DNA of 64,000 nucleotides from Methanosarcina acetivorans C2A (GCF_000007345.1 NC_003552.1:2170001-2234000), one strand, 5' to 3'. Shown: positions 3,783-62,321, numbered from the stretch's first letter. Notes: a model not told the origin generated them from the letters alone. Made by a program: numbers and translations.

Positions 3783-4685
3783 TTAAAAGGATTTTTCTAT
3801 GCTTTTACAGATAGCAGTTTTAGCTTCCATGTAAGAGTTAATTGCTATATTCATTGTTCCATTAACATTGATAATCTTCATGTTAAATATTTTTGCAAAT
3901 TCGGAAGCATTTCTATGAAAATTAACATCTTTATAGTTTTGATTATTAATCTTAAAAAGAAGACTATACATCGGAGAAATTAGATATTTTCTGATCTTTT
4001 TGTATGATTCAGAAGATTTGTAATTAGTTTCATTCAGGTCGGAAAGTACCATTGGTGTTGCATATATGGCTCCTTTGCCATTTCCTGATAACATCATTTT
4101 TGTGTAAATCTCGTTTCCTCCAAGTGCTACACTTATACAGTCATCGACAATATTTCTTCCATCGTCCCTCAGAAAATAAACAGGACAACCAAGTTGTTGC
4201 AATTCTGCCTTCATTTTTTCAGAACTAAAGCCACATTTTCCATAAAATAAGAGAATACCATTCGAGATTTTTGACATTTCTCTGGCATTCAGATACACTT
4301 CAGATTGCAAAGTATCAACATTCGAATGTAACTCTTTTCTAAGAAGATTCACAACAACAGTTAATCCCTGTTTCTTCTCTTTACGAAGTATAAAATCGTA
4401 TATTTTCTTACAGAAAGGAATAATCGAAAACTTCCTCGAAAAATTACCGGGAGGCTCTCTGAGTGACTCTCTGAGCGACTCTCTATTGATTTCCGATACA
4501 ACAGGATACAGCCTGTCAGACGGAAACATAAAAGGCTTAAGATTTTCAGACTTGAGTTTTTTTACAAATCGGAAACTGTTTCTGTTCTCTACTACAAATA
4601 GCCTTTTGATTTCAGGATCTTTAGAGAGAACATATACTAATTCATCTTCAAGCATTTCACAGGCAACTATACTTAAGACCGGCAT
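3783..4685 (-). CDS. DUF1638 domain protein, copy 1
   Basis: 300 aa, paralogous to the upstream 266-aa neighbour. Shared motifs: an N-terminal MPV(L/M)SI..C.ML(E/Q)DE(L/I), TVVVNL, LHS followed by LKSEVY, SNGIL(L/I)FYG.CG, a GC pair before a DD dyad, and DDCI...(L/V)GG. This is the DUF1638 pattern; the family is of unknown biochemical function and is often encoded near corrinoid methyltransferase genes, so a one-carbon role is an inference from family context. Compared with its neighbour it carries an insertion of about 35 residues around position 70-105, beginning with a duplicated ESLR unit. It follows its neighbour by 12 nt and is probably co-transcribed with it. It ends the operon; the following 600 bp are gene-free. 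Confidence 0.75.
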   Translation of the reverse strand: MPVLSIVACEMLEDELVYVLSKDPEIKRLFVVENRNSFRFVKKLKSENLKPFMFPSDRLYPVVSEINRESLRESLREPPGNFSRKFSIIPFCKKIYDFILRKEKKQGLTVVVNLLRKELHSNVDTLQSEVYLNAREMSKISNGILLFYGKCGFSSEKMKAELQQLGCPVYFLRDDGRNIVDDCISVALGGNEIYTKMMLSGNGKGAIYATPMVLSDLNETNYKSSESYKKIRKYLISPMYSLLFKINNQNYKDVNFHRNASEFAKIFNMKIINVNGTMNIAINSYMEAKTAICKSIEKSF

Positions 4686-4697
4686 AATTATCTTTTC

Positions 4698-5498
4698 TTA
4701 ACAGCTATCACAGATTTCATCCTTTATCGAAAGATAACATTTCTCGAATATTTCCTGATTACCGCTGATCTCAAAAGTACTGTATCCGAATAATTGAGCA
4801 TATTCTTCGATCTTTGCATCGATGTTCTTCACATATGTAAGCCCTGTATTGACTTTTGCAACTCTTGAATAGCCTGCCAGGTCATTGATCATTTTTGCCA
4901 TTTTCAACGCCTTTTCAGGATCAGAATGAAGTTTATTGATGTTTAAAAGTTCTTTCCATGAGCTGGCATACATGGGTGTAAAGAAGAAAGCAGGCTCTTT
5001 GCTGTGGGTTTTAAGCAATTTAAGGTAGTTTGCACCCCCGCCTACCGTTGCTCCGATGCAGTCATCTACAACTCTTTCATCATCCTTTAGTATCCGCACC
5101 GTACAGCCATCTTTTTCCAGACAAAAATCCTCCTCCACATTACCCAGAACATTACCGCAAAGGCCGTAAAAAATGAGTATCCCATTGGAGAACGGTATCA
5201 TTTCCCTGATATTTTGATAGACTTCGGATTTCAATATTTTTGGTACTGAATGAAGCCCGAGTTTCATAAGGTTGACTACAACAGTGAGTTCATTCCTGTC
5301 GATATTATTAAGCACCTTTGGTAGCTTTTCGAACGGAATAATATCATAACATATATGCTGTTCATCTATTTTTTCGGAAAATTCAGCGATATTCCCATTT
5401 GCTACAATTAAAATTCTCTTTATTTGGGAATCGTTTGCAATCAGCCAAATTATTTCATCTTGAAGCATTTTACAACCTAAAATACTCATAACGGGCAT
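4698..5498 (-). CDS. DUF1638 domain protein, copy 2
   Basis: 266 aa with the DUF1638 signature: CKMLQDE near the start, TVVVNLMKLGLHS, GILIFYGLCGN (conserved Cys), CTVRILKDD and DDCIGATVGGG. The conserved Cys and Asp residues suggest a metal or redox site, but no activity is established for the family. GGAGGAG precedes the ATG. A perfect 22-bp palindrome lies 84 nt upstream of the start (5582-5603), between this gene and the TetR gene, implying its own TetR-controlled promoter. The tandem pair probably arose by duplication. Confidence 0.78.
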   Translation of the reverse strand: MPVMSILGCKMLQDEIIWLIANDSQIKRILIVANGNIAEFSEKIDEQHICYDIIPFEKLPKVLNNIDRNELTVVVNLMKLGLHSVPKILKSEVYQNIREMIPFSNGILIFYGLCGNVLGNVEEDFCLEKDGCTVRILKDDERVVDDCIGATVGGGANYLKLLKTHSKEPAFFFTPMYASSWKELLNINKLHSDPEKALKMAKMINDLAGYSRVAKVNTGLTYVKNIDAKIEEYAQLFGYSTFEISGNQEIFEKCYLSIKDEICDSC

Positions 5499-5581
5499 TA
5501 CAAATCTCCTCCAAATTTATTTTATGTATCCTACTAGTTTCAATTCTTTAGAGCAAAAAATTGATTTGATAATTAGAATCC

Positions 5582-5603
5582 ATCTACCTATATATAGGTA
5601 GAT
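5582..5603. promoter_or_regulatory. TetR operator, perfect 22-bp palindrome
   Basis: Half-site ATCTACCTATA followed exactly by its reverse complement. It lies between the tetR stop and the first DUF1638 start. Closely similar palindromes built on ATCTA(C/T)CT..A occur at 7374-7413 before the QueG-like gene. Size and symmetry are typical for a TetR-dimer site. Confidence 0.7.
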
Positions 5604-5620
5604 TCGGGATGGGAAAAAAA

Positions 5621-6199
5621 TCAATCCTTCCACCCAAGATCAGATTTGATTAAGGAAATAGATCTGACAAGTGTTTTTCTACCCTGGATGCTAGATAACA
5701 GTCTGGCACCCATCAATGTTTCGACTACCAATTCCGCGCGTGCTTCGACAGGGTCTGAAAAATTGAATTCCCCTTTTTCCAGGCCGGTTCTGAGAACTTT
5801 GGAAATCCAATCTAATATACAATGCAGTAGCAGCAGATTTTGCTTTTTAACTTCCTCCGGAAGTTCTTCAAAATCAAGGATCACTGAGCCAGGAGGGCAG
5901 ATACTTTTACCTTCATCAAACTCCTTCAATGCATAATCGAAATAGTATTGAAGCTGCTCACGAGCAGACCCTCCAGACTCCACAATTCGGGCAATATGCT
6001 CGACTAAGTTCTTTCTGCTCTCTTCAAGCAAGGCAGCAACCAAATCTTCTTTTTTAGGGTAGTAATGATGTATTGAAGAGTTTTTTATCCCCAGTTTCCG
6101 GGAAATATCCTTATAACTAAATCCATTATAACCCTGGCATTGCAAAAAGTGCCTTGCGTAGTGGCGTATTTGTTGATTGGTCTGGCTTATGTCTGTCAT
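5621..6199 (-). CDS. TetR/AcrR family transcriptional regulator
   Basis: 192 aa from the ATG at 6199, chosen because MTDISQTNQQIRHYARHF matches the usual beginning of TetR proteins; an in-frame alternative at 6241 adds 14 atypical residues. The DNA-binding helix-turn-helix is FSYKDISRKLGIKNSSIHHY at about residues 27-46, followed by KKEDLV, the end of the classic TetR_N domain. The rest is a variable helical ligand-binding/dimerisation domain. The gene lies between the DUF1638 pair and the QueG-like gene, on the same strand, and palindromes next to both neighbours suggest that it represses them. The ligand cannot be inferred. Confidence 0.88.
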   Translation of the reverse strand: MTDISQTNQQIRHYARHFLQCQGYNGFSYKDISRKLGIKNSSIHHYYPKKEDLVAALLEESRKNLVEHIARIVESGGSAREQLQYYFDYALKEFDEGKSICPPGSVILDFEELPEEVKKQNLLLLHCILDWISKVLRTGLEKGEFNFSDPVEARAELVVETLMGARLLSSIQGRKTLVRSISLIKSDLGWKD

Positions 6200-6301
6200 A
6201 TAAATACACATGTTTCTTATGAGTACTTGAATAACACTCATTCATATTAAGCTTAGTTTCTGGCCCGGTTCGGATGAAAAACATTTTGCATTTCGTATGC
6301 A

Positions 6302-7313
6302 TTATATACCAAGTTGCTGACAGGCCCACAGCGCAGTATTGCGAATATTCCGATCAGGATTTTCCACGGCTTCTTTGATATATTCATAATACTTCCGGTC
6401 TCCGCTGTTGGCCATAGCTCTCAAAGCATTGCATTTCCATATCCGCAGGCCATCCTGTCCTATATACCAGAACCTGGGCTGAATTACATTAAGGAAGATT
6501 TCTTCATCCATGTTCCATATACTTTCAAGCGACAGATATGGCGCTATATCTGATAAATCAATAAAGTTTTCCATTTCTTCCCATTTGTTTTTATTCCTTG
6601 GACATACATTCTGACAGATGTCACACCCATATCCAGGTCCCCATCTCGGCTCGCAAGCCCTCTGTCTGCGAATTTAACCCGTTTGTGAGTTGAGCGATGC
6701 ACTTTCCCCTGTTCATTGATAAAGGCATGTTCATAGCTCCGGTCGGGCACGAATCTATGCATTTGTTACAGCCATCCGGATAATTTAATGAACGCATAGG
6801 CATATCATATTCCATTTCACTGTCAATTACCCACGTTTCAATGAAGACCCAGGAACCATGTTCTTTCGTGTAGAAAAAGTTGTTCTTGCCTGTACGTCCT
6901 AAGCCGGCATTCACTGCTGCCAGACGGGCGGTAACTATTCCAGAAGCATATTTAATCCCCAGCTCGCCTAAATAAGCATCAAATTCGAGTCTCCAGAAAT
7001 ACTCCTTTGAGTGTTTCGGTCTTCCATCAACCAGGTATGTCTTTCCTATGTAACTATCGAGTTCCTCTGGAATTTTATATTTCCCATATCTTCTCACACA
7101 AACAATAATTGATTTTGCCCACTTTACATTTTTTTGAGGAAAGGCTAGAGGATACAGGTTTTCATATAATGAGCGAGACTCAGAGAAATTTCTAATCCTT
7201 TCATCAAGATGTGATGAGTATTCCTCAACCAAATTCACAGGTGTTATTCCACATAAATCGTAACCTATTTCCAGGGCTTTTTCTTTGGTACAAGATGACA
7301 GATACTGCTCAAT
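6302..7313 (-). pseudogene. QueG-like double [4Fe-4S] protein, frameshifted
   Basis: The gene is split into two frames. The N-terminal frame (to 6621) has EKALEIGYDLCGITP, ARLAAVNAGLGRTGKNN and CNKCIDSCPTGAM, typical of epoxyqueuosine reductase (QueG)-related proteins. After a shift near 6650-6664 the other frame supplies GYGCDICQNVCPRNK, the second cluster motif, then a HEAT-like C-terminus (NALRAMANSGD, RNTALWACQQLGI). Together they make one colinear protein of about 336 residues. The 5' end also lacks a normal start: homology runs past the ATT at 7311-7313, which has GGAGGG 8 nt upstream, to a region with no ATG. The closest family role is cobalamin-dependent reduction in queuosine synthesis, but this archaeal relative may serve something else. 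A sequencing error could also explain the shift. Confidence 0.75.
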
Positions 7314-7373
7314 TTTTTGTCCCTCCGAATTTATACAAAATTTTAAACATTCTTGTTATTTCCCGGACAACAA

Positions 7374-7413
7374 ATCTACCTGCATGCAAGTATCTATCTA
7401 CATGTAGGTAGAT
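7374..7413. promoter_or_regulatory. Double TetR-type operator
   Basis: Two overlapping dyads upstream of the QueG-like gene. The one at 7392-7413 has half-sites ATCTATCTACA and ATCTACCTACA (one mismatch); the one at 7374-7395 starts ATCTACCTGCA and is weaker. They match the palindrome at 5582-5603, so the same TetR protein probably binds both places. Confidence 0.6.
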
Positions 7414-8212: not shown

Positions 8213-8911
8213 ATGAAAGTACTTGGCATATCGGGAAGTCCGAGGGCAGAATCACGTTCAGGCTCTATTAAAGTTGTACAGAAAATTCTAGAGAACACAG
8301 GATGTGAATATGAGCTTATTTCACTGCATGGTAAAAACATAGGTGGCTGCATCGGATGTATGGCATGCGCTGATGACAATGTATGCAAATTAAATGATGA
8401 CCTGAAAACCATACGTGATAAGATTGTTGAAGCTGATGCTTATGTTTTGAGTGGTGTCAATTATTTCAACACATTGAACGCAATAATGCATTCTTTCCTT
8501 GAAAGATGGTATCAATTCAGGCACCGTGAAGCTGATATTCTCTGGGGAAAACTTGCAGTTACTGTGAGTCTTGGAGGTTTTGCCCCTTCTCCGCCTGCTG
8601 AACTTCTAAACACATTCTGTTTAGTTAACTTAATCAAAGTTATAGATACTGTTCAAGGAATAGGTGCTTTTGGTTGCTGTTATTGCGGATATGGTGAAGA
8701 CTGCAAGGTAGGTGGACACTATGCTAAAAATGGACCAAACTCTCCAATCAACGCGAGTACGATTCCTGATGTTACAAAGGATGAAAAAGTGATGCTTGCA
8801 GCTGAGCGGGCAGGCAAAAAGCTTGGTGAGCAACTGCGCTCTGCTGACTATAGCCGTGAGAAAACAGCACAAGAAGTTATGGAAGCTAGGAGAGCTAATC
8901 ACAAAAGATAA
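8213..8911 (+). CDS. Iron-sulfur flavoprotein / FMN reductase family
   Basis: 232 aa from the ATG at 8213, preceded by GAAGGAG. MKVLGISGSPRAESRSGS is the flavodoxin-fold FMN-phosphate loop of NADPH-dependent FMN reductases. CIGCMACADDNVC (CX2CX2CX5C) is a compact [4Fe-4S] motif as in Isf proteins of Methanosarcina. DAYVLSGVNYFNTLNAIMHSF matches the conserved ligand-contact region. A further cysteine-rich stretch (GAFGCCYCGYGEDCKVGGHY) is extra. Isf-type proteins pass electrons between ferredoxin and flavin. It stands alone on the plus strand next to the TetR/QueG-like cluster; whether it shares regulation is not visible. Confidence 0.85.
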   Translation: MKVLGISGSPRAESRSGSIKVVQKILENTGCEYELISLHGKNIGGCIGCMACADDNVCKLNDDLKTIRDKIVEADAYVLSGVNYFNTLNAIMHSFLERWYQFRHREADILWGKLAVTVSLGGFAPSPPAELLNTFCLVNLIKVIDTVQGIGAFGCCYCGYGEDCKVGGHYAKNGPNSPINASTIPDVTKDEKVMLAAERAGKKLGEQLRSADYSREKTAQEVMEARRANHKR

Positions 8912-9086
8912 TAATTTATAAGCTTCTTTAAGTATTGTTCATTCGCATCAGTTATAAAACTGATGCTATTTTTAATATTAAGCAAATATCATAAAAAATA
9001 GTGCAGAGTTATAGATCGTGTCTAAACAGACAACTGTTATAAAAAGTTAGTGTTTCAAAATCAGGAATCTTGACTTATATCATTCT

Positions 9087-9330
9087 TCAACATCCTCCCT
9101 CCCACACTTTAAACCATTTCCTCACACGTTTATTCATAGTAAACGGTTTATTTTCTTTCGCATTTTTCTTCATGTAATGCAATGTACCCTTAGAAAAGCC
9201 CAATCTCTTCCAGTCAACATACTAAATATTGAAAATCTTTTCCCTGATTTCTTGAGAATCAATTTTCTCAATTTCATACTCATGCCTAACAAAGTCCAGT
9301 TTCTCTTTTTGCTCATGAGAAAATAGTTAA
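9087..9330 (-). pseudogene. Possible Cas1 C-terminal remnant
   Basis: Minus-strand translation gives FSHEQKEKLDFVRHEYEIEK, then IDSQEIREKIFNI, a TAG (9222-9224), and VDWKRLGFSKGTLHYMKKNA followed by KPFTMNKRVRKW. The LGFSKGTLHYMK block resembles the extreme C-terminus of some archaeal Cas1 proteins as I remember them. No N-terminal part, no other cas gene and no CRISPR array are visible. The family call is uncertain; the coding-like character of the fragment is more secure. Confidence 0.4.
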
Positions 9331-9414
9331 CCCCTTACCTTCAAAAAGATAACATTGAGCAGCAGAAAAGAGATTAATAGATTAATTCATTTATCTGTTA
9401 ATGGTGAGATCCTT

Positions 9415-10017
9415 ATGGATAATATCAAAGCTACTGAACAAATTTCTAACGCGATCCTGGAGAACATTTACCAGCGTCGATCCGTGCGCAACTATTCCGA
9501 TAAGGAAGTTTCCGACGAAATAATTAAGGAAATTATCCGGGCGGGAACATATGCACCAAGCGCCGTGAATAAGCAGCCGTGGCGGTTTGTAGTCGTGAAA
9601 AATAGGCAGCTCATTGATAAATATGATGACCTTGCCAGGAAGGCTTTCCTTTCCGTATACGGGGATACCGACAATCCGGACCTGATCGGATATGTACAGT
9701 ATTTATCAAAACCGACAACCCGGATACTCTATGGGGCACCTGTTTTCATCCTGGTATTCGCGGCTCCCGACGTTATCGACGACAGGGACTGTGCTCTGGC
9801 GGCGGAAAACATGATGCTTGCAGCTCGCTCTTTAGGGATCGGTAGCTGCTGGATTGGTCTGGCAGCAGGCCTGGGTAGCGATACGGAATTCCTGAAGGAA
9901 GTGGGAGTGCCGGAGGGATATAAGCTTATCGCACCCCTGATCTTTGGATACCCGGCGAAGGATAATCAGAAGGCACCTGCCCGTAATGCCGATGTCATAT
10001 TAAAATGGGTTGATTAA
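9415..10017 (+). CDS. Nitroreductase family protein
   Basis: 200 aa from the ATG at 9415 (GGTGAG upstream); a start at 9355 would add 20 unlikely residues. IYQRRSVRNYSDKEVSDE is the FMN-binding RRSVR motif, APSAVNKQPWRFVVV the second conserved block, and LAAENMMLAARSLGIGSCWI the C-terminal flavin contact region. It is a full-length minimal nitroreductase fold enzyme binding FMN and using NAD(P)H, acting as a dimer in the cytoplasm. Substrate unknown. It follows the Cas1-like relic by about 85 bp and ends 215 bp before the convergent rpoP, so it is probably a single-gene unit. Confidence 0.9.
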   Translation: MDNIKATEQISNAILENIYQRRSVRNYSDKEVSDEIIKEIIRAGTYAPSAVNKQPWRFVVVKNRQLIDKYDDLARKAFLSVYGDTDNPDLIGYVQYLSKPTTRILYGAPVFILVFAAPDVIDDRDCALAAENMMLAARSLGIGSCWIGLAAGLGSDTEFLKEVGVPEGYKLIAPLIFGYPAKDNQKAPARNADVILKWVD

Positions 10018-10849: not shown

Positions 10850-11641
10850 TTACTCACTTTTTGCAAGCCCTTCAAGGTAGAGTCCCCTGAGTTCGGCTGC
10901 CTTTTCGAGTGCCAGGTCTATTGCCTCGAACAGCTCTGCCTCGGTAAGAGGGGAAATGCCCATTTTCTGCATGCCTGCAACAGACCCGTCCGAACTTGAA
11001 ACTATGGTCAGTTTCGTTTCGCAAACTGCTTCTTCATCAAGGGATGGGTCAACCATCAGCTTTGAGCCTATCTTTGCAATAGTTATACCGACAGGCATCT
11101 CTTTCATCGCAAGGGGTACATCTTCGCCCAGTCCCTGCTGCTCGTTAGGGACCATGGTGGTCATGAGTGCTGCAATTGCAGCAAGACAGGATGCATCAAT
11201 GATATTTCCGTCATCGTTCAGGACGTGGACGTCTATAAAGACAATCCAGACGGATTCTCCAACCGTTATGCAAAGCTTCTTTATATCAATTGCGCCCGAT
11301 TCCCTGATCCCTCTGTCAACGACCCTTGCCATTTCGATTGCTTCTTCTCTGGGTGGCCCTGGCTCGAATTCGGGAGAAGCTATCGGGTTAAGCTCAAGAT
11401 TGGTAATAATCACGCCTTCGTCCTGAGAATCCGGGAATGGAGTTCCGGTCTGAAGCTTCACACCTACAAGGACCTGGGTGTTTCCGAGGGTAACTTTTGC
11501 AGAACCTTCGGCTTTGACAATAACGTTTGTTTCAAGCTTGAGATCCCTGAAATCTTTAAACCCGCGTCCGTCCTGACGCTTACCTTTGATCATCAGGTTG
11601 TAAATATAGTCCTTCTTAAGTGTGGCTATGATTTCACTCAT
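10850..11641 (-). CDS. rrp42: Exosome core protein Rrp42
   Basis: 263 aa from the ATG at 11641 (GAGGTG just upstream), overlapping the rrp41 stop; a GTG at 11650 is an alternative. RNase PH fold: KGKRQDGRGFKDFRDLKLET, LGNTQVLVGVKLQTGTPFPD, PGPPREEAIEMARVVDRGIR. Rrp42 is the non-catalytic partner of Rrp41 in the hexameric (Rrp41-Rrp42)3 ring that degrades or tails RNA from the 3' end. The overlap with rrp41 implies translational coupling of the two equimolar subunits. Confidence 0.97.
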   Translation of the reverse strand: MSEIIATLKKDYIYNLMIKGKRQDGRGFKDFRDLKLETNVIVKAEGSAKVTLGNTQVLVGVKLQTGTPFPDSQDEGVIITNLELNPIASPEFEPGPPREEAIEMARVVDRGIRESGAIDIKKLCITVGESVWIVFIDVHVLNDDGNIIDASCLAAIAALMTTMVPNEQQGLGEDVPLAMKEMPVGITIAKIGSKLMVDPSLDEEAVCETKLTIVSSSDGSVAGMQKMGISPLTEAELFEAIDLALEKAAELRGLYLEGLAKSE

Positions 11642-13244
11642 CTTTTTCACCTCTGTTTTCGGCTTCAGAGGGGTTTTTTACTACCTTCCAGGGACCTTCG
11701 GATTTTTCTTCTTCAGGCTCTTCTGCTGCCTCTACTGCTTCGGCAGCTTCCTCAACTTCGACCTCGGCTTCTATTTCAGGCTCAGAAACTTCTTCCGAAG
11801 CAGGACTTTCCTCGACTTCGACTTCTTCTTTAAGAGCTTCCTCTTCAAGTCCCTCGGTTTCAGCCTCAAGCTCAATTTCTTCTTCAGCTTCTCCAGAATC
11901 AGCTTCTTTCTCAAGCCTGGCCTCAATTTCTTCAAACTCTTTGATTTCAGGAGTACCCTCTAAAGAAGCTTCAAATTCAGTCTCTTCTTCAAGAGGTTCC
12001 TCTTCGAATTCTTCCAGATCTTCTTCTAAGTCTTCCTCTAAGCCTTCTTCAGCTTCCTCTAAGTCTTCTTCAGCTTCTTCTAAGTCTTCTTCAGCTTCTT
12101 CTAAGTCTTCTTCAGCTTCTTCCAAGTCTTCTTCAGCTTCTTCCAAGTCTTCTTCAGCTTCTTCCAAGTCTTCTTCAGCTTCTTCCAAGTCTTCTTCAGC
12201 TTCTTCTTCCAAGCCTTCTTCAGCTTCTTCCAAGCCTTCTTCAGCTTCTTCCAAGTCTTCTTCAGCTTCTTCTTCCAAGCCTTCTTCAGCTTCTTCTTCG
12301 ACTTCCTCTTCTTCAAATTCTTCTTCAATCTCTTCCTCTTCTTCGGAGTCAGGGATTACCTCGCTGGAAAAAAGGATATCAGGCTCAGAGATTTCCTCCA
12401 GACCCTCTACTTCGAGTTCTTCAGCTTCTTCAGCAGCTTCTTCCGAAACAAACTCGGGGGCCGGTAAGGACTCGGCTTCGGCTTCAGTTTCGGTTTCTGC
12501 AGCTTCTGCCGCAGGTTCCTCAACAGGAGTTTCAAACTTCTTTCTAAGGACAGCCTGCTGAAGTGCGAGGATCTCTCTGCAGCCCTTCTTTACAAGCTCA
12601 AGCCCTTTCTTGATTTCTTCAGGTGTAAGGTGCCCATCCATCTGGACAAGAGTAATTTCTCCCTCCTGGGTCATTGCTACGGGGAAGTCAGCTTCTCCGT
12701 AGTTATCCTCTTCCTTATTCAGATCAAGCACAATCTGCCCGTCAACCTTCCCGAAAGCACAGGAGGTAATAAGGCCTTTCATTGGGATTCCGGCATCTGC
12801 AAGAGCTATACTGGAAGCGTTAATTGCTGCTGTCCTTGTCCCTGCATCGGCCTGAAGCACTTCTACGAAAATGTCAATTGCTGTCTTAGGGTACAGCTCA
12901 GCCAGGATCACAGGCTCGAAAGCTTCCCTGGAAACTTTTGAGATTTCAATGCTCCGCCTGCTAGGGCCCGGACGAGCGCGGTCCTCCACGGAGAATGATG
13001 CCATATTGTATTTGTAGCGGATTACTGCCGAATCTGCGCGCTGGCTGCGGCGGGGATGAGCTTCCCTGGGGCCGAACACGCCTACCAAGATCTTATTCCT
13101 GCCCCATTCAAGATAACATGAACCATCGGCTCGCGAAAGTACACCGATCTCAATTTTCATGGGCCTAATCTCATCCGCACGTCTCCCGTCAAGGCGCAGC
13201 CCATCGTCAGTGATTAATATTAAGTTTTCAGGTTTCTCACTCAT
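11634..13244 (-). CDS. rrp41: Exosome catalytic subunit Rrp41 with long acidic tail
   Basis: 536 aa, more than twice the usual 240-250. Residues 1 to about 235 are a normal RNase PH domain: DGLRLDGRRADEIRPMKIEI, RPGPSRRSIEISKVSREAFE (RNA/phosphate-binding arginines), TRTAAINASSIALADAGIPM, and the catalytic region VLDLNKEEDNYGEADFPVAM. The remaining 300 residues are almost entirely Glu with Ala/Leu, containing about a dozen heptads of the form EEAEEDL, and finish with GPWKVVKNPSEAENRGEKDE. The tail should be disordered or helical and strongly negative. It starts the ring with rrp42 and follows rrp4 by 78 nt. Acidic Rrp41 extensions are known in Methanosarcina; the length here is set by tandem duplication. 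Confidence 0.95.
   Translation of the reverse strand: MSEKPENLILITDDGLRLDGRRADEIRPMKIEIGVLSRADGSCYLEWGRNKILVGVFGPREAHPRRSQRADSAVIRYKYNMASFSVEDRARPGPSRRSIEISKVSREAFEPVILAELYPKTAIDIFVEVLQADAGTRTAAINASSIALADAGIPMKGLITSCAFGKVDGQIVLDLNKEEDNYGEADFPVAMTQEGEITLVQMDGHLTPEEIKKGLELVKKGCREILALQQAVLRKKFETPVEEPAAEAAETETEAEAESLPAPEFVSEEAAEEAEELEVEGLEEISEPDILFSSEVIPDSEEEEEIEEEFEEEEVEEEAEEGLEEEAEEDLEEAEEGLEEAEEGLEEEAEEDLEEAEEDLEEAEEDLEEAEEDLEEAEEDLEEAEEDLEEAEEDLEEAEEGLEEDLEEDLEEFEEEPLEEETEFEASLEGTPEIKEFEEIEARLEKEADSGEAEEEIELEAETEGLEEEALKEEVEVEESPASEEVSEPEIEAEVEVEEAAEAVEAAEEPEEEKSEGPWKVVKNPSEAENRGEKDE
12010..12310. repeat. 21-bp tandem repeat inside rrp41
   Basis: Plus-strand unit close to CTTCAGCTTCTTCTAAGTCTT, repeated about 13 times with small changes (TCC for TCT, GCC for GTC, extra CTT triplets). 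In the rrp41 frame each unit is EEAEED/GL. All changes keep frame, so the array expands and shrinks by whole codons. Confidence 0.9.
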
Positions 13245-62129: not shown

Positions 62130-62321
62130 GAGTCTTTTTAATTTTTTCTGGTTTTTCTTCAATTTCAAGACAACCACAAAATTTTATCCCAATTTGAGCA
62201 AATCAATTCACTCATTTAAAAATGTGAGTCTTTTTAATTTTTTCTGGTTTTTCTTCAATTTCAAGACAACCACAAAATTTCATCCCAATTTGAGCAAATC
62301 AATTCACTCATTTAAAAATGT
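62130..62321 (+). repeat. 96-bp tandem duplication
   Basis: Two head-to-tail copies (62130-62225 and 62226-62321) differing at one base (T/C before ATCCC). Each includes the IS inverted repeat GAGTCTTTTTAATTTTTTCT, so the terminus is doubled. Confidence 0.95.

Follow-up and report, generated by a model that had tools for sequence, protein, structure and literature searches.

NemR of Escherichia coli and YxaF of Bacillus subtilis are TetR-family repressors in which a TetR fold with a helix-turn-helix (HTH) domain is paired with an adjacent target operon and an operator beside the regulator gene. A locus with the same layout is found in the 64,000-nucleotide stretch of the Methanosarcina acetivorans C2A genome analyzed here (bases 2,170,001-2,234,000 of the single 5,751,492 bp contig searched; hereafter the window). 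In this module a tetR gene is flanked on one side by a perfect palindrome preceding a tandem pair of DUF1638 genes and on the other by a QueG-like iron-sulfur (Fe-S) sequence behind two overlapping dyads. Unlike NemR and YxaF, the presumed targets are DUF1638, QueG-like and DUF3786 genes, and neither the operator sequence nor the effector is known to match theirs. Judged from sequence, the TetR protein, its operators and the DUF1638 pair very likely constitute a regulatory unit. It appears to be an undescribed, well-conserved local TetR regulon; as a switch it is ordinary, and it does not represent a new type of system. No prior account of the module was found in the literature that mentions DUF1638, in agreement with the original prediction, made from the DNA alone, which knew of no description; the literature on DUF3786, DUF2115 and DUF2099, and on TetR in Methanosarcina, yielded nothing relevant.

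The proteins encoded by the pair belong to the same family, PF07796, as DUF1638 proteins of Phaeobacter and Ruegeria, and share with them an association with corrinoids and one-carbon (C1) metabolism (PMC5764234, PMC12478193). In Phaeobacter, B12-dependent methionine synthesis requires DUF1638 and a RamA-like protein, and methionine rescues the DUF1638 mutants; the authors offered no specific proposal for DUF1638 (PMC5764234). In Ruegeria grown on glycine betaine, both DUF1638 and RamA are more abundant (PMC12478193). Whereas the Phaeobacter gene is the last one of a methionine-synthase operon (PMC5764234), the M. acetivorans genes form a tandem pair under TetR with an operator of their own. 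The RamA and RACo activases (TIGR04270, PF14574) are encoded beside the module in several relatives and are proposed to have the same protein targets as DUF1638, but DUF1638 lacks their ASKHA and ferredoxin domains and no sequence relation to them was found.

Organization of the module and its palindromes

The module lies on the minus strand, where the order of transcription is double dyad, QueG-like coding sequence, tetR, palindrome and the two DUF1638 genes. Its parts, in window coordinates, are as follows.

7392-7413, no strand: putative operator O2b, 22-bp dyad ATCTATCTACATGTAGGTAGAT with one mismatched pair, overlapping O2a by 4 nt
7374-7395, no strand: putative operator O2a, imperfect dyad ATCTACCTGCATGCAAGTATCT, overlapping O2b by 4 nt
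6302-7312, minus: QueG-like pseudogene (4Fe-4S, HEAT C-terminus), TTG start at 7312-7310; from TIGR00276 fragments and nucleotide alignment with loci L059, L062 and L067 of relatives
5621-6199, minus: predicted tetR-family repressor gene, 192 aa; PF00440, 35.5 bits (cut-off 24), and orthologues
5582-5603, no strand: putative operator O1, perfect 22-bp palindrome in the gap between tetR and the DUF1638 pair; from the palindrome scan and its conserved position
4698-5498, minus: DUF1638 gene b, first of the pair, 266 aa; PF07796, 6.3e-38, 131 bits
3783-4685, minus: DUF1638 gene a, second of the pair, 300 aa; PF07796, 8.5e-30, 104 bits

Both DUF1638 proteins exceed the PF07796 cut-off of 27 bits, and the position of gene a, second after tetR, is kept in most tetR loci. 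The TetR protein matches the TetR_N HTH domain above the curated threshold and carries the recognition helix IKNSSIHHYY. Its probable start is the ATG at 6199-6197; a 206-aa open reading frame (ORF) reaching 6241 was judged to be an over-extension.

The coordinates of the original prediction (3783-7413) proved right. The palindrome ATCTACCTATATATAGGTAGAT is perfect across its 22 bp and is the only perfect palindrome with a half-length of at least 9 (at least 18 bp) in the window. By chance, 0.3 palindromes of that length would be expected in 64 kb, and 0.017 (about 0.02) with a half-length of at least 11 (at least 22 bp). The two overlapping dyads of the original prediction, at 7374-7413, were likewise confirmed: their centers are 18 bp apart and they have half-sites in common with O1. 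The same 18-bp tandem spacing recurs before tetR in a relative (locus L058). Across the 5.75-Mb genome, ATCTACCTNNATNNAGGTAGAT matched only the module sites at zero or one mismatch, and a search for further regulon members at up to three mismatches returned, besides matches at chance level, only the three sites of the module. The center of O1 is TATA-like (CTATATATAG), and O1 may therefore overlap a promoter that bound TetR would block. The gaps of the module gave no Rfam match to a riboswitch or other known RNA; the only Rfam matches in the window, a tRNA and the eL15 leader, lie elsewhere.

Conservation of the TetR-operator unit

Among 112 Methanosarcinaceae genomes, 38 encode a TetR orthologue, defined as a protein of at least 60% identity, giving 46 orthologues in all (60-100% identity). 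A DUF1638 gene directly follows tetR in 42 of these 46 loci. When the 130 nt that follow the tetR stop were scored against the operator consensus YTACYTRYATRYARGTAR, 41 of the 44 scorable loci contained a site with no more than two mismatches (27 with none, 11 with one, 3 with two), so that the palindrome does accompany orthologous tetR and DUF1638 genes as the original prediction would have it. Only 1 of 2200 shuffled gaps attained one mismatch or fewer. The remaining three loci are from Methanomethylovorans and have CTTACTTACTAGTAAGTAAG, or a near copy of it, about 20-30 nt before tetR. The operator center usually falls approximately 28 nt downstream of the tetR stop, with about 85 nt separating it from DUF1638 gene b. 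Exact matches to YTACYTRYATRYARGTAR number 55 in the 112 genomes, 51 of them at the module, compared with 5 for the reversed pattern; genomes that lack this TetR contain two in total.

Three loci (L093, L095, L096) retain the operator and carry an amino-acid permease in place of DUF1638. This permease, of the APC type, is nearest to YjeH (L-methionine/branched-chain amino acids), although its score of 136 bits is below the cut-off of 284. Upstream of these variant modules lie a DUF6951 gene (L093 and L096) and a methanogenesis-marker-8 (mmp8)-like gene (C64 cluster; L093 and L095). The four exact operator matches away from the module are in genomes G088 (contig C116), G055, G061 and G063. The G088 match (L137, around 9130) is flanked by a permease gene on one side and mmp8 genes on the other and has no adjacent tetR ORF; it could represent a relic or be a target in trans. 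Those in G055, G061 and G063 resemble chance and were rejected as regulon members.

The conserved operators fall into two dialects, with half-sites of the CTACCTA type in 21 loci and of the TTACTTA type in 20. TetR residue 42 (M = 1), within the recognition helix, is Ser with CTACCTA and Ala with TTACTTA in all 41 TetRs, a covariation that hints at a recognition contact and is suggestive only. Both dialects occur together in single genomes (G080, G088, G059 and G043).

The QueG-like gene has decayed in M. acetivorans

The original prediction had treated the QueG-like Fe-S sequence as an intact gene of this genome, which did not hold. Alignment with L059, L062 and L067 revealed two deletions, one of 4 nt at 7303/7304, close behind the TTG start, and one of 2 nt at 6632/6633, within the second Fe-S motif. 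Because of these deletions the frame begun at the TTG stops after about 15 codons, and the sequence is, on this alignment, a pseudogene unless both deletions are sequencing errors. A reading of the frameshift as one extra G was rejected on this alignment. All three relatives preserve the intact order operator-QueG-DUF3786-tetR-operator-DUF1638-DUF1638. The prediction that a QueG-like gene and the DUF1638 pair share one regulon is thus supported by these relatives and, as originally stated, not supported for the present genome, where, given the pseudogene, the working regulon is probably tetR and the DUF1638 pair. Judging by the relatives, a DUF3786 gene once lay between the QueG-like gene and tetR and has been lost here. 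A search for DUF3786 found no match anywhere in this genome; its control, however, likewise gave no hit in any genome, so that absence is not proven. With the QueG-like gene decayed and DUF3786 gone, the double site O2 would now serve mainly the autoregulation of tetR.

The QueG-like protein resembles QueG (TIGR00276) in having two 4Fe-4S clusters and a HEAT C-terminus, and an intact relative matches the solved QueG structure 5d6s at 1.9e-23. It is apparently not QueG proper: the two fragments here score 79 and 52 bits and the best relative, the intact protein of L062, 147 bits, against a family cut-off of 200. The eight cysteines expected to bind the two clusters are present in L062, and in M. 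acetivorans the frameshift splits the set. The catalytic aspartate of QueG precedes an AGLGWIGKN-like motif. In the alignment with 5d6s the segment expected to hold this residue appears not to be conserved, with GIVPARL and a gap standing where 5d6s has MVDTGALVD.

DUF1638 and a possible link to corrinoid proteins

Each of the 51 Methanosarcinaceae genomes sampled has DUF1638, and this genome has seven loci. One DUF1638 gene of this genome, at genome positions 3973240-3973687 (L105), shows up as a pair of fragments scoring 45 and 46 bits and is probably broken. In an alignment of 55 DUF1638 proteins, with residues numbered as in the gene b product, Cys9, Cys114 and Cys147 are invariant and Cys132 nearly so; D14-E15, Y111-G112, D146 and T174-P175 are also conserved. 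The AlphaFold2 model of the gene b product has a mean pLDDT of 92.6 and alternating strands and helices in a Rossmann-like arrangement. Judged by the order of the secondary structure elements, the cysteines are located at strand ends or shortly beyond them, a placement in the model that would suggest a metal or Fe-S site. In a second structure comparison, P-loop and Rossmann proteins of various kinds gave Z-scores of about 9-10. This likeness was taken as a common arrangement only and not as a guide to function. In locus L203 (2790-4715) a hydantoinase/oxoprolinase-like protein adjoins a DUF1638 gene, a cluster that recurs in 7 of 79 fetched DUF1638 loci; a preprint on the mlp gene cluster mentions neither DUF nor hydantoinase-like genes.

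Three lines of evidence lead us to favor an accessory role for DUF1638 in the activation or upkeep of corrinoid proteins, a role that we put forward tentatively. First, pyl genes adjoin the module in nine Methanosarcina loci, most of them ordered ramA-pylS-pylB-pylC-pylD-tetR-DUF1638-DUF1638. Second, another DUF1638 gene of this genome sits among folate C1 genes encoding MTHFR, an MTHFR C-terminal domain, a pterin-binding (DHPS) protein, FolD and SHMT. Third, there are the bacterial data described above, the Phaeobacter genetics and the greater abundance of DUF1638 with RamA in Ruegeria. A one-carbon or corrinoid role had been part of the original prediction; these neighborhoods and genetics lend it support, and it retains the standing of an inference. 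A RACo domain is encoded in 87 of 102 genomes with DUF1638 and in 73 of 194 without (hand count), a comparison confounded by clades.

A model for the regulon, and its alternatives

Taken together, these data are consistent with a model in which TetR, as a dimer, recognizes the palindrome CTACCTAYATRTAGGTAG both at O1 and at the double site O2, the latter standing before what would have been an ancestral QueG-like/(DUF3786)/tetR operon. TetR would thereby repress the DUF1638 pair and itself, by blocking the promoter at the operator, until released by a small-molecule effector. DUF1638, with its Rossmann-like fold and four near-invariant cysteines, would most likely be an accessory factor that helps to make or keep corrinoid methyl-transfer proteins active beside RamA-type activases. 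We regard this explanation as a whole, a local TetR repressor regulon together with an accessory corrinoid role, as reasonably probable.

Several observations weigh against it. In none of the genomes searched did an operator precede pyl, ramA or methyltransferase genes; by the operator test pyl and ramA are therefore neighbors rather than regulon members, and the signal sensed by TetR cannot be read from the regulon. In this genome pylD is 2 Mb distant from the module, and twelve genomes of one sister family encode DUF1638 without a RACo/RamA domain. The DUF1638 model matched nothing in the PDB below an E value of 1e-3, giving no clear solved relative, and no sequence relatives were found there. 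With regard to the dialects, the Ser/Ala switch is one change on the tree and TetR residue 167 splits the two site classes equally well, so the covariation counts as one event and not as proof of contact.

A more ambitious version of this model would have the DUF1638 pair be an unrecognized inducible system for the maturation or rescue of corrinoid proteins, in which the Rossmann-like DUF1638 proteins would carry a metal or Fe-S site of four cysteines and work alongside RamA and, in certain species, a QueG-like cobalamin protein and DUF3786. The Ser/Ala switch at residue 42 and the CTACCTA/TTACTTA switch would then insulate paralogous copies, so that two or three modules could answer different signals in one cell. 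We consider this version unlikely.

Distinctly unlikely, in our view, is a thiol or electrophile stress switch, with the TetR a NemR-like cysteine sensor and DUF1638 and the QueG-like protein protective or repair reductases. NemR (4yze; 2.3e-7) is among the nearest solved structures, with 3on4 and 2g7s, and is the nearest characterized TetR relative of known structure. Cys101 is invariant in all 46 orthologues and aligns with Cys106 of NemR, the cysteine of the sulfenamide switch; Cys106 is the reactive cysteine of the NemR bleach switch (PMC7464077). The module is also adjoined by FMN-reductase-like (PF03358; 8213-8911, plus strand) and nitroreductase-like (9417-10017, plus strand) genes, which together span 8213-10017. 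However, the partner of the NemR cysteine, Lys175, is replaced by a serine, Ser170, and an equivalent of Cys101 is also present in the two uncharacterized nearest structures. Moreover, no operator precedes either of the adjoining genes, and most relatives do not have such neighbors.

Ranking lower again is a switch for methionine or amino-acid homeostasis, in which methionine, or one of its methylated derivatives, would be the signal sensed by the TetR and the targets would be exporters or accessory proteins of the methionine cycle. The YjeH-nearest permease behind the operator in the three loci that lack DUF1638 points in this direction, as does the rescue of Phaeobacter DUF1638 mutants by methionine (PMC5764234). 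However, the substrate of the permease is not established, and methylamine-linked genes and the methanogenesis-marker gene mmp8 are also neighbors.

Terminators, and the sites of other factors, can also take the form of palindromes. It is nevertheless highly improbable that those of the module serve a different regulator as its operators, or form a structural element of DNA or RNA, with TetR a mere neighbor: they are almost confined to genomes with this TetR and lie beside tetR, their position is kept when the downstream gene changes, the two site classes track two TetR classes even where these coexist in one genome, and the module gaps match no Rfam family.

Other features of the window

Three further repetitive features were noted. 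At 1546-1715, in a long stretch without clear genes, a 17-bp unit, TAAGTAAAATACATGCT, occurs in ten tandem copies (98% matches). A gene at 11634-13244 (minus strand) encodes what by eye is an exosome Rrp41-like protein; its C-terminal tail is long, acidic, repetitive and rich in Glu, with 21-bp tandem repeats at 12009-12335. At 62130-62321 a 96-bp unit is duplicated in tandem, near-exactly (98% matches).

Implications

DUF1638 is also found in B12-using bacteria, and a cognate TetR with a defined operator of 18-22 bp offers a direct handle on the family. What the TetR senses should show when DUF1638 is needed, and the good genetics of M. acetivorans C2A make deletion and reporter experiments straightforward. 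The two dialects offer, in addition, a pair of possibly orthogonal methanogen repressors.

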